Shown here: positions 7,371 through 61,282 of the stretch, in pieces | How the letters are laid out: each line of letters starts with the position of its first letter | Position numbering within the stretch: position 1 is the first letter of the stretch | Source: Halovivax asiaticus JCM 14624 | GTDB lineage: Archaea; Halobacteriota; Halobacteria; Halobacteriales; Natrialbaceae | Assembly (NCBI RefSeq): GCF_000337515.1 | Contig: NZ_AOIQ01000019.1 | Location: 1-64,000, forward strand | Direction of reading: 5' to 3' | Length of the DNA stretch: 64,000 bases | The notes under the pieces: model-generated | Database searches by the model: none | Seen by the model: only the letters and a program-made list of their open reading frames with translations | What the model was told of the DNA's origin: nothing | Position numbers and translations under genes: made by a program

Positions 7371-8027
7371 ATGTCACAGCAAAAATCCGATTACGTCTCC
7401 CAGACCGATATCGACGAATCGCTCGACGAACTTCCCGCCGCGGACGCCATCGACGAGGCCGTCTCGAATCTCGAGGACCACGGCTTCGAGGTCGTGGTCG
7501 TCGACTCAGCCGACGAGGCGCTCACAGCGGTTCAGTCACAGATTCCCGCCGGGGCGTCCGTGATGAACGGCCACTCGACGACGCTCGAAGAGATCGGGTT
7601 CGTCGAGTATCTGAGTGAGGGTGACCACGAGTGGGAGAGCATCCCGGACCAGGTCTGGAGCATCGACGACGACGAGGAGCGCCAGGCGGCCCGGCGCGAG
7701 TCTCAGACGGCCGACTACTTCCTCGGCAGCGTCAACGCCATCGCCCGGACCGGCGAACTCGTCGCGGCAGATCGATCGGGGAGCCGTATCGGCGCGTACC
7801 CCTTCGCCGCCGGCAGGGTCGTCATCGTCAGCGGCGTGAACAAGATCGTGCCGACGCTCTCTGACGCGCTCGACCGGCTCGAATCCGTCGCCTACCCGCT
7901 GGAGAACGAACGAGCCAACGAAGCCTACGGCGTCGACTCGGCCATCGCCAAGCAGCTCATCTTCCGCCAGGAATTAGAGGAGGGCCGAACCACCGTCGTC
8001 CTCGTCCGCGATCAGTTCGGCTACTGA
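7371..8027 (+). CDS. LUD domain protein (lactate-utilisation LutC-like)
   Basis: This is a 218-residue protein of the LUD (formerly DUF162) family. Typical features are the GASVMNGHSTTLEEIGF segment near 65-80, a central DYFLGSVNAIARTGELVAADRSG, and VVIVSGVNKIVPTLSDAL near 160. LutC-type proteins work with LutA and LutB iron-sulfur proteins in lactate oxidation in bacteria, but here no lutAB genes are adjacent and the exact role is open. The ATG at 7371 is chosen because MSQQKSDYVSQTDIDESL gives a normal soluble N-terminus. It is monocistronic. Confidence 0.85.
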   Translation: MSQQKSDYVSQTDIDESLDELPAADAIDEAVSNLEDHGFEVVVVDSADEALTAVQSQIPAGASVMNGHSTTLEEIGFVEYLSEGDHEWESIPDQVWSIDDDEERQAARRESQTADYFLGSVNAIARTGELVAADRSGSRIGAYPFAAGRVVIVSGVNKIVPTLSDALDRLESVAYPLENERANEAYGVDSAIAKQLIFRQELEEGRTTVVLVRDQFGY

Positions 8028-8207
8028 GAGTCGGTTCCGCTCGCCTGGACGCTATTGGCGAGCCAGTATTCTGTCGGCCGGCCAGTTTTCTCCGTCAGGT
8101 CGTACGCAGTATCAGAGCCGCATTCGTCGTAACGGTGCAGTCACACCGCTCGTGGGCGGATAGATGGTCGCTGTGGACGGGGAGACAGTGCCACGAGCGC
8201 GGGCGAT

Positions 8208-8402
8208 TCACTCGTCGTCGAACTCCTTCGCCAGTTCGACGATCTCGATCTCCCAGTTGTGGGTCGAACCGCAGGTTTCGAACTCCCACGCACCGCGCAC
8301 GTCGACGTTCGCTTCGATCGCCGTTTCGACGGCTGCGGCGAGAACGGTCTCGAACTCTCCGGGGCTCGTAATCGAGACGTCCGTGAGTGGATTTCGTGTC
8401 AT
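8208..8402 (-). CDS. Small conserved-looking acidic protein, unknown function
   Basis: This 64-residue acidic protein (MTRNPLTDVSITSPGEFE...EFDDE) has an alternating alpha/beta pattern and a single cysteine in the middle (FETCGSTHNWEIEIVEL). Codon use matches its neighbours, with C or G at most third positions, which supports it being real. The ATG at 8402 is preferred; an in-frame start at 8498 would add an unlikely basic leader. I do not recognise a family with known function. Confidence 0.6.
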   Translation of the reverse strand: MTRNPLTDVSITSPGEFETVLAAAVETAIEANVDVRGAWEFETCGSTHNWEIEIVELAKEFDDE

Positions 8403-8566
8403 GGATGCGGGCCGTCTGACCACGACTCGAAGAGTGACGCTAGTCACGACCTCGTCGCCTTCGACGAGGCCGATCTCCGCGCAGGGCGTTCGGTCCAATT
8501 TGTTTCAGGTGTGCCGCCCGTAAAGGGCTGGTCCTTCCCATGGCACACCATGCTATTTCTTGGAGG

Positions 8567-8578
8567 TTGGTATACCAA
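8567..8578. promoter_or_regulatory. 12-bp perfect palindrome upstream of bat-type HTH gene
   Basis: TTGGTATACCAA is a perfect palindrome about 45 bp before ATG 8623. It sits just upstream of a TATA-like TTTTTACAC (8588-8596), the usual place for an operator or activator site. A second inverted repeat, CATGG-4-CCATG, lies at 8539-8552. Autoregulation by the HTH protein is an inference. Confidence 0.5.
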
Positions 8579-8622
8579 GCAGGTCATTTTTACACGGATC
8601 GGACCCAGACACAACGAAGGGA

Positions 8623-9303
8623 ATGGCCGTCATCGCTCATCTCCGGATACCTGCCGACGCGTTCGAACTGGGACGTATCCTCACGCTGGATCCCGGGACG
8701 ACTATCGAACTCGAAACCATGGTGCCGCTGGGGGAGAAGGCAGTCCCGTTCTTCTCTGTCAGCGACGAGGCCCGCGAGTCCTTCGAACGGAACGTCAGTG
8801 ACCACCCGTCCGTCGATCGGATCGTCGAGGTGAGCCAGCACCGGAACGAACGGCTGTATTCACTCGACTGGGACGTCACCACGGACGACTTCTTTCTTGG
8901 AATCGCCGAGATCGGTGGCCAGGTTCTCAGTGCGACCGGCACCACGAGCACCTGGGAGTTCGAAATTCGCTTCCAGACTCACGAACGCCTTAGCGACTTC
9001 CAGGAGTACTGTTCGGACGCCAGCATCTCCCTCGAAGTCGGTCGCATCTACAACCCCGTTCGCCCGGGGACCGGCATGTGGTACGGACTGACGACCGCCC
9101 AGCGAGAGACGTTGATTCGGGCGGTCGAAGATGGCTACTACTCGATTCCACGGCAGGTGTCCACACAGGATCTGGGCGACGCGGTGGGCATCTCCGATCA
9201 GGCCGTTACCGAACGACTGCGTCGCGGAATCGAGACCCTCGTGATGAACTCACTCATCGCGATGGAAGCCGACGAGTCCGAAACGTTCCAGCGGGTTAGC
9301 TGA
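8623..9303 (+). CDS. Bat-type helix-turn-helix transcriptional regulator
   Basis: This 226-residue protein has the layout of haloarchaeal bacterio-opsin-activator-like regulators: an N-terminal sensory half of about 150 residues starting with VIAHLRIPADAFELGRIL, then a C-terminal HTH of the bat type (LTTAQRETLIRAVEDGYYSIP, then QVSTQDLGDAVGISDQAVTERLRRGI). The N-terminal half resembles the GAF/BAT-associated module, without recognised ligand residues. The ATG at 8623 gives the conserved start of the family; a TATA-like box at 8588-8596 lies about 30 bp upstream. A perfect palindrome at 8567 may be its operator. A paralogue is encoded at 56761. Confidence 0.85.
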   Translation: MAVIAHLRIPADAFELGRILTLDPGTTIELETMVPLGEKAVPFFSVSDEARESFERNVSDHPSVDRIVEVSQHRNERLYSLDWDVTTDDFFLGIAEIGGQVLSATGTTSTWEFEIRFQTHERLSDFQEYCSDASISLEVGRIYNPVRPGTGMWYGLTTAQRETLIRAVEDGYYSIPRQVSTQDLGDAVGISDQAVTERLRRGIETLVMNSLIAMEADESETFQRVS

Positions 9304-9414
9304 CGGCCGTTCTTCGTGGCTCTCGTGTGAGAAGCCCACCGAGCGGATGGGGATGGGTTAACAGCCTCGTGTGCCATGCACCGTCCGTAATTGTGTGGCT
9401 ATACACTCGACACT

Positions 9415-43503: not shown

Positions 43504-43575
43504 GGGCTCGTAGATCAGTGGTAGATCGCTTCCTTCGCAAGGAAGAGGCCCTGGGTTCAAATCCCAGCGAGTCCA
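43504..43575 (+). tRNA. tRNA-Ala (anticodon CGC)
   Basis: The 72-nt cloverleaf has acceptor GGGCTCG/CGAGTCC (one G-U pair), D-arm GATC-loop-GATC, anticodon stem CTTCC/GGAAG with loop TTCGCAA (anticodon CGC at 43536-43538), T-arm CTGGG-TTCAAAT-CCCAG and discriminator A. CCA is not encoded. It reads GCG. A promoter-like CTACTAATAG lies about 30 bp upstream. The last 23 nt plus two more bases are duplicated 130 bp downstream. Confidence 0.97.
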
Positions 43576-43577: not shown

Positions 43578-43682
43578 ATTCTACGCCGCGAGCACGTCCG
43601 CGAGCGGCGTGAATCGTCGTCGACGCTGAATTTGAAGCCTTGGAAGTCGCAGCGCGAACGAAGTGAGCGACCGTCTTCCTTC
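43578..43682. repeat. Hairpin module between the two tRNA-Ala 3'-end copies
   Basis: These 105 bp hold a stem-loop (ACGCCGC-14-GCGGCGT, about 43586-43613) and then an imperfect long inverted repeat: TTTGAA, GGAAG and GTCGC on the left pair with GCGAC, CTTCC and TTCAAA on the right, the last lying in the second tRNA-tail copy. A CTTCCTTCG identical to part of the tRNA anticodon arm lies at 43675-43683, directly before the second copy. Confidence 0.8.
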
Positions 43683-43707
43683 GGGTTCAAATCCCAGCGA
43701 GTCCACT
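43683..43707 (+). repeat. Second copy of the tRNA-Ala 3' end (att-like)
   Basis: This is a perfect 25-bp copy of the tRNA-Ala 3' end, as left by tRNA-targeting integrases, but only 130 bp away, so no integrase gene fits between the copies. It lacks the rest of the cloverleaf and is not a tRNA gene. Confidence 0.9.
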
Positions 43708-60746: not shown

Positions 60747-61208
60747 CCGCTACAACCAGCCGGCTTTTCCATGTTCCCGGTTCTGTACTTCTGGGCTGTA
60801 ACTCTCTGTAGTGCTTCAGGAACGTTTTAAGACTGTTCCATCCGCCTAGTCGCGTACGAGCAGCGGGTTGGACTGGACGTGCTTTTCCGCGAACCAACCG
60901 GTGAGCGGAAAAGCAATCCGTCCCCGATTTGAACAGCTGGAAGGCGTTCCTCCTCGCCTCGTTTCACTCGGCTGCGTGGGCTGCGGCTTCCATGCTCAAA
61001 TCGGGTCCGGTTGGCTTTTCAGGAAGTGACGTGCTCGCTCCGCTCGCCGTGTAACTTCCTGAAAAGTCCGCCCTCCCCGATTTGAACAGGTGCCAGACGG
61101 TCGCGCTCACGCTGTTCGCGCGCTGCGACTCGCGTGTTCAAATGGGTCAGGATGGACGTCTCGAAACTCGCCGGGTTCGCTCCGCTCACCGGTCGAGTTC
61201 ACGGGAAG
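60747..61208. repeat. tRNA-Tyr 3'-end tandem repeat array with hairpins
   Basis: This 460-bp stretch has no supported gene. It contains one full 24-bp copy of the tRNA-Tyr tail (61064-61087, identical to 61206-61229), a third partial copy (60921-60934, 14 bp) and hairpins between them: GCTTTTCCGC-14-GCGGAAAAGC (60881-60914), CTTTTCAGGAAGT-26-ACTTCCTGAAAAG (61015-61066), ATTTGAACA-46-TGTTCAAAT (61080-61143) and a similar diverged arm at 60926-61001. Successive copies are about 142-145 bp apart. Confidence 0.85.
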
Positions 61209-61282
61209 TCCGCCCTCCCCGATTTGAACGGGGGACAAGTCGATCTACAGTCGACTGCTCTACCAGTCTGAGCTAAGGGCGG
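61209..61282 (-). tRNA. tRNA-Tyr (anticodon GTA)
   Basis: The 74-nt cloverleaf on the minus strand has acceptor CCGCCCT/AGGGCGG with the C1-G72 pair typical of archaeal tRNA-Tyr, D-arm GCTC...GAGC, anticodon stem GTCGA/TCGAC with loop CTGTAGA (anticodon GTA), T-arm CCCCC-GTTCAAATC-GGGG and discriminator A. CCA is not encoded. It decodes both Tyr codons. Its 3' end is the first unit of a repeat array. Confidence 0.97.

Follow-up and report, generated by a model that had tools for sequence, protein, structure and literature searches.

Short gene-free units behind the tRNA genes of Halovivax asiaticus: a probable family of mobile, tail-addressed haloarchaeal cassettes

Described systems closest to the units

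The attC site of integrons folds into an imperfect hairpin in which little of the sequence is fixed, and GTT stands at the inner end of its repeated block. The units reported here resemble integron cassettes with a folded attC: they form arrays behind a fixed site, and each ends in an imperfect hairpin with little fixed sequence and GTT at the inner end of the repeat. Unlike integron cassettes, they contain no ORF and have no neighbouring integrase; the part of the fixed site is played by a tRNA gene, and each tRNA has a repeat of its own.

The second close system is that of archaeal tyrosine-integrase elements of the pleolipovirus SNJ2 type, whose insertion at the 3′ end restores the tRNA gene and leaves a direct repeat of its tail (PMC8371274), which is also seen here. 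As with such elements, a clean empty site exists in a relative (for Ala, Leu(CAA) and Tyr). The SNJ2-family integrases are restricted to Halobacteria (PMC8371274), and so are the units. Unlike the SNJ2-type elements, the units are gene-free, without an integrase of their own, and are arrayed behind most tRNA genes of a genome. They also share a 21-nt block (against 11–15 nt in the viral attP examined), an inverted arm matched to the tail, and a hairpin core. Since they have no integrase gene, they could be non-autonomous at most if they are tyrosine-integrase elements.

Small transposase-free elements (SMRs, PATEs and MITEs) of about 110 bp with inverted ends and a strong target preference were described in Haloquadratum walsbyi; the SMRs target IS605-type elements and PATEs and make no target duplication, and no link to tRNA was reported (PMC3119063). 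Our units are likewise transposase-free, haloarchaeal, of similar size, with inverted ends and strong in target preference. Unlike SMRs, judged by the published description of these, their location is linked to tRNA genes, where they leave a copy of the 21-nt tail. REP/BIME palindromes share with them the short, imperfect, non-coding DNA hairpin and the high copy number; unlike REPs, the units are tied to tRNA genes and match their target, and Y1 (RAYT-type) transposase genes do not co-occur with them here.

No previous description of such units was found in the open-access papers searched, subscription literature lying outside the search, and we provisionally regard the family as previously unnoticed. 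The ends of tRNA genes are classic landing sites for mobile DNA, normally for large elements with their own integrase; here they hold arrays of tiny gene-free inserts, and in many haloarchaea most tRNA genes bear inserts with both ends matching the target. If confirmed, the units would document integration at tRNA genes as it happens in nature, would allow one to test directly whether integrases specific for a tRNA can move DNA in trans, and would lend themselves to the question of how a mobile element comes by a new address. They would, moreover, mislead the annotation of partial tRNAs and provirus ends.

Units of the window and of the host genome

The window, i.e., the whole stretch of 64,000 nucleotides analysed, belongs to contig 19 of the 3.24-Mb haloarchaeal genome. 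It contains the tRNA-Ala(CGC) gene on the plus strand (43504..43575, end at 43575/6), whose tail at 43555-43575 (GTTCAAATCCCAGCGAGTCCA) represents the host attachment block, and the tRNA-Tyr(GTA) gene on the minus strand (61209..61282, end at 61208/9) with its tail at 61209-61229. In the tRNA direction, a unit opens with hairpin 1, directly from the tRNA's last base; next come the arm (a partial, inverted copy of the tail, for example GGATTTGAA), an imperfect core hairpin and a direct tail copy. The core is of the form AGTCG...CGTCT with a conserved T.T mismatch. The tail copy reproduces almost exactly the last 21 nt of the host tRNA, from the first G before the T-loop to the discriminator base.

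The Ala unit (plus strand) includes hairpin 1 (TTC..ACGCCGC / GCGGCGT..GAA; 43579..43613), comparable to a hairpin in most units; the arm ATTTGAA (43630..43636), which pairs with the tail copy; the core hairpin (GGAAGTCGCAG...GACCGTCTTCC, with the T.T mismatch; 43637..43684); and a direct copy of the tRNA-Ala tail (43685..43705, 21/21 identical). Tyr unit 1 (minus strand) is built in the same way: hairpin 1 (approximately 61157..61205), homologous to a hairpin in a congener, the arm ATTTGAAC (61136..61143), the core hairpin (61088..61135) and a direct copy of the tRNA-Tyr tail (61067..61087, 21/21 identical). The sequence-only reading had reported a core shared by the two modules (43646-43676 and 61095-61129), and the strings quoted for it are present at those positions on both strands. 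GTGAGC abuts GACCGTCT in the Ala unit, and two bases (GC) lie between the two in the Tyr unit.

That reading had missed a second, decayed Tyr unit (60918-61065, minus strand), which comprises hairpin 1 (TTTTCAGGAAGT...ACTTCCTGAAAAG; 61015..61065; hairpins 1 are assigned from the sequence), the arm GATTTGAGC (60994..61002), a core hairpin (60935..60993) with a homologue behind a Tyr tail in a congener, and a decayed copy of the tRNA-Tyr tail (60918..60934), in which a match of 14 nt is followed by divergence. It had also overlooked the inverted partial tail present in every unit (ATTTGAA) and the units behind most tRNA genes of the genome.

The survey of the host genome covered 43 tRNA genes and the DNA downstream of each, gathered piecewise. 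Units were found 3′ of 26 of these genes, each with one to three tandem copies. Across three congeneric genomes (118 units), the length ranges from 97 to 246 bp with a median of 124, and at this length the units contain no genes. The similarity of the Ala and Tyr modules is far above chance: GTTCAAATC has 70 sites in the genome against one for the reversed control, and for the core pattern AGTCGCR..CGTCT the corresponding figures are 79 and 24. Most of the GTTCAAATC sites are tRNA T-loops and copies some 90–230 bases behind them; the orphan sites were considered as tail copies, and sequence comparison ruled this out. A covariance model built from 20 units matched 34 units in the genome, down to E = 1e-17. 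It should be noted that part of the reported core (GAACGAAGTGAGC) is a dyad type frequent between genes in haloarchaea; the family-specific part is AGTCG...CGTCT together with the arm and the tail.

In four places (Lys(TTT) unit 2, Thr(CGT) units 1 and 2, and Phe unit 3; L010, L011, L015), the tail copy starts with GTTCAC-AATC and not with GTTCA-AATC. This variant of the core/tail junction, common to three different tRNAs, may mark the point where element and target meet.

Distribution and covarying fold

Among 41 genomes sampled from relatives, the host genome itself included, 36 were matched by the covariance model of the unit, with up to 40 matches per genome. In a phylum-wide sample, 41 of the 43 members of the order were matched and none of the 204 other genomes. 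An independent pattern scan of named genomes gave matches in Haloarcula, Haloferax, Halorubrum, Natrinema, Halobacterium and many other haloarchaea. Of the 79 haloarchaeal matches inspected, 73 lie directly 3′ of a tRNA gene on the same strand. The tail copy equals the 21-nt tail of that tRNA in 53 and differs from it by at most three bases in 70, the scan pattern itself fixing only 9 of the 21 tail bases. Three of the six remaining matches (L205 and two of L211) are at the edge of the available stretch. The profile scan proposed in the sequence-only reading has accordingly been run, and its matches are tied to tRNA genes, not to a general genome-wide repeat. The idea of a single element family linked to tRNA genes, with tails matched to the target, is borne out both genome-wide and across species.

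Viral pattern matches (L191, L192) and four in non-haloarchaeal records were dismissed as chance, there being no tRNA gene at these sites. Larger elements inside arrays (L197, L200, L230, L232, L249, L298) were considered as autonomous versions and turned out to be second tRNA genes, an unrelated insertion or a weak match. Units also occur on haloarchaeal megaplasmids, one behind a plasmid tRNA-Gly and one, perfect in form, behind a tRNA-Glu-like gene of the Natrinema thermotolerans megaplasmid (L313:2848-2958), which ARAGORN did not detect and which seems to be interrupted by an intron of about 40 nt. On a plasmid of Halomicrobium urmianum (L314:1990-2058), a unit core stands by itself, with neither arm nor tail and at a distance from tRNA genes; other targets may be open to the core as well.

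The inverted arm and the tail of the tRNA to which it belongs covary. When a neutral anchor is used, tail base 5 is matched by arm C in 15 of 15 cases where it is G (GTTCG tails) and by arm T in 60 of 62 cases where it is A (GTTCA tails). The arm also matches tail positions 9–12, beyond the T-loop, with z = 10.5 against permuted tails. Where the T-loop is unusual, as in tRNA-Gly(CCC) (GTTCAATTCC), the arm reads GGAATTGAA. In the 20-unit alignment, 95.6% of the helix cells are paired, with 34 double changes against 9.8 in shuffles, and the covariation score is 0.368, compared to 0.158 for shuffles and at most 0.118 for slid controls. The stem thus covaries, as the earlier reading had asked to be checked, and its similarity is not at chance level; the repeat site is an imperfect hairpin with a covarying stem, as in an integron attC.

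The folded strand is the tRNA-sense strand, and together with the covarying helices and the position directly behind tRNA genes this would suit a functional trailer RNA, co-transcribed with the tRNA, whose hairpins act in 3′ processing, in termination or as decoys of the tail and T-arm. Arm changes that give G.T pairs with the tail (62/365) also exceed those that give C.A pairs (17/321); since this wobble excess fits both RNA and single-stranded DNA and is weakened by shared ancestry, it does not decide between the two. We consider the trailer RNA unlikely, as orthologous tRNAs are polymorphic both in having units and in how many they have, and no unit is found at about 40% of tRNA genes. In addition, the existence of clean empty sites and the decay of distal copies suggest that a given locus is under no constraint, and a search of the units with the Rfam 15 covariance models gave no match.

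Hairpins with a GNA triloop and flanking GA pairs are very stable in DNA. An apical GNA triloop with flanking GA pairs is found on the sense strand in 59 of the 118 units and on the reverse complement in none. As a sign of a stable DNA hairpin this apex is only suggestive, the dyad also being frequent between haloarchaeal genes. Imperfect hairpins with such an apex on one strand only, and an arm complementary to the target, are what one might expect of single-strand transposition by an IS200/IS605- or REP-type (Y1) transposase, the arm serving as a guide that pairs with the target tail. However, no Y1 transposase match was found in three genomes with 19–34 units each (G000, G004, G232), a genome with ten Y1 matches has no units, and transposition of the Y1 type makes no 21-nt target duplication. 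Y1 transposases are disfavoured as movers, and we hold this explanation to be improbable.

Gain and loss, the tail as an address, and candidate recombinases

The three congeneric genomes carry units on 26 of 43, 24 of 41 and 22 of 42 tRNA genes. Orthologous tRNA genes vary both in the presence and in the number of units (0–5), for example, 2/0/0 for Tyr, 1/5/1 for Gly(TCC) and 0/2/2 for Arg(CCT). Both tRNAs of the window have clean empty sites in relatives. For Ala(CGC), GTCCA|TCAGAATTCTTA stands directly behind the tRNA in G003, and the same flank follows the tail copy of a unit in G001 (146/179 identical). For Tyr, G001 holds one flank twice, directly behind the tRNA and behind the tail copy of a unit (136/210 identical), and the core of that unit is homologous to that of the second Tyr unit of the window. 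Leu(CAA) provides a third clean pair of empty and filled sites. Where the tail of a tRNA differs between species (Gly-TCC, Gly-CCC and Leu-TAA in G001), the unit tails match the local tRNA. That units come and go between species points to a mobile family using tRNA ends as its address, and we think it very probable that the units are mobile, tail-addressed cassettes.

Unit bodies were compared in all pairs with the tail removed. Identity of at least 80% between different tRNA genes was found in 5 of 32 pairs with identical tails, in 2 of 30 at a tail distance of 1–2, and in 3 of 6630 at a distance of 3 or more. Since body sharing is almost confined to identical tails (Lys/Lys, Glu/Glu), the tail acts as a carried address. 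Similar units at different tRNA genes indicate that the address can change; a switch to a new tRNA would be rare and would explain the common core. The proposal that the element adopts the tail of its target therefore stands as regards target-matched tails; free copying at each hop is probably not the case, as bodies are common mainly to tRNA genes with identical or near-identical tails.

Tail decay is polar: the distal copies are the more decayed in 22 arrays, against 3 with the opposite order (p = 1.6e-4), a pattern to be expected from the arrival of fresh tails beside the tRNA. Unit gain and loss are not polar: extra units lie proximal and distal to shared ones in equal numbers (19 vs 19), so that strict entry beside the tRNA gene is not supported. 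The good preservation of proximal tails, as well as the near identity of some neighbouring units (Met 1/2, Arg(CCT) 1/2, Gly(TCC) 1/3), would also follow from tandem duplication and gene conversion only, with tails copied locally, kept alike and never moved between loci. Such a purely local origin is improbable given the homologous cores at unrelated tRNA genes, the bodies common to the Lys(TTT)/Lys(CTT) and Glu(TTC)/Glu(CTC) loci and the first units found where the site of a congener is empty.

Taking the mobile, tail-addressed cassettes as a starting point, we suggest the following course of events. Insertion would leave the tRNA gene intact and end in a second copy of its tail, and arrays would be built by repeated insertion and local duplication. 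The inverted arm would pair with the tail copy, so that the cassette end folds on the tRNA-sense strand as a long imperfect hairpin, which is probably the recognised form. Recombination could be performed in trans by tyrosine integrases of viruses or plasmids using the same tRNA ends or by a host Xer-type enzyme, with rare target switches via the universal T-loop sequence. We rate as rather probable the joint reading of short, gene-free, site-specific cassettes with the last 21 nt of the tRNA gene as their attachment block; it can be graded so because the recombinase acting in trans enters it as something we infer only. Movement by a tyrosine recombinase, taken by itself, has in our opinion an even chance of being correct. 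Tyrosine integrases suggest themselves, since tRNA ends are their sites and the footprint is just the one that they leave (PMC8371274).

Integrase-bearing DNA adjoins tail copies in G001 (of Phe and Tyr) and in G024 (of Arg(TCT)), the tRNAs being the same as those used by units, and units follow beyond; the integrases of G024 and of virus SNJ2 share 41.6% identity. The G024 integrase, beside the Arg(TCT) array, was rejected as the autonomous version, the expected attP side being without a tail. A probable provirus with a 15-nt tail repeat is found in tRNA-Phe of G001 (L315, ~8000-9316; G001:C1, 51 kb from tRNA-Phe); a 419-aa integrase starts beside the tail repeat, and a unit lies just beyond it. 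Both ends of this element carry inverted GTTCAAATGCC motifs, which hints that T-loop-like motifs can be integrase sites.

Use of the same tRNA ends by integrase-bearing elements, and units beyond apparent integrated elements at Phe and Arg(TCT), would also be expected if each unit were the scar of a provirus, i.e., what is left of one end after an integrated virus or plasmid was deleted. We regard this as very unlikely, since a conserved covarying fold and a narrow length range are seen at more than 20 different tRNA genes, and since 50,697 phage records contain no sequence related to the units. The SNJ2-type viral attP examined include 11–15 nt of the tRNA end and have neither the arm hairpin nor the core, so they were also rejected as parents of the units.

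No recombinase gene linked to the units was found. The host genome has four PF00589 matches, none of them in the contig of the window, where no IntI-type integrase gene stands beside an array. Nor do PF00589 counts rise and fall with the number of units: two genomes of more than 30 units have 4 and 3, and one with 2 units has 14; integrase number was dropped as a predictor of unit number. These points tell against the joint reading, as do the short viral attP without an arm hairpin, the core copy distant from tRNA genes and the strain that a gene-free circle of 125 bp would be under as double-stranded DNA. Tentatively, and with more doubt than for the cassettes as such, the units may form an order-wide, self-addressing haloarchaeal cassette system. 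In it, folded single-strand hairpins, in which the target-matched arm and tail together make up the recombination site, would be put in at most tRNA genes by a resident recombinase. Such a system would be like an integron with a tRNA gene as its fixed site and an address that is rewritable on the move to a new tRNA.

Two other repeats were noticed beside tRNA genes of the host genome. Behind tRNA-Leu(GAG), a 47-bp stretch (GTCGATGCAGGTGGAGTCCCTTGGGACTGCACCCACGCACAATTCCT), outside the unit family, occurs twice (L041) and is nearly unchanged in two congeners (L190, L166). Beyond the last tail copy, Gly(TCC) and Leu(TAG) (L004 and L026) share another dyad family (CAACCTTTTGC...GGCAAAA.GTTGATCAAAAGCACTCCTCCTTCC), which is perhaps a second tRNA-linked repeat.
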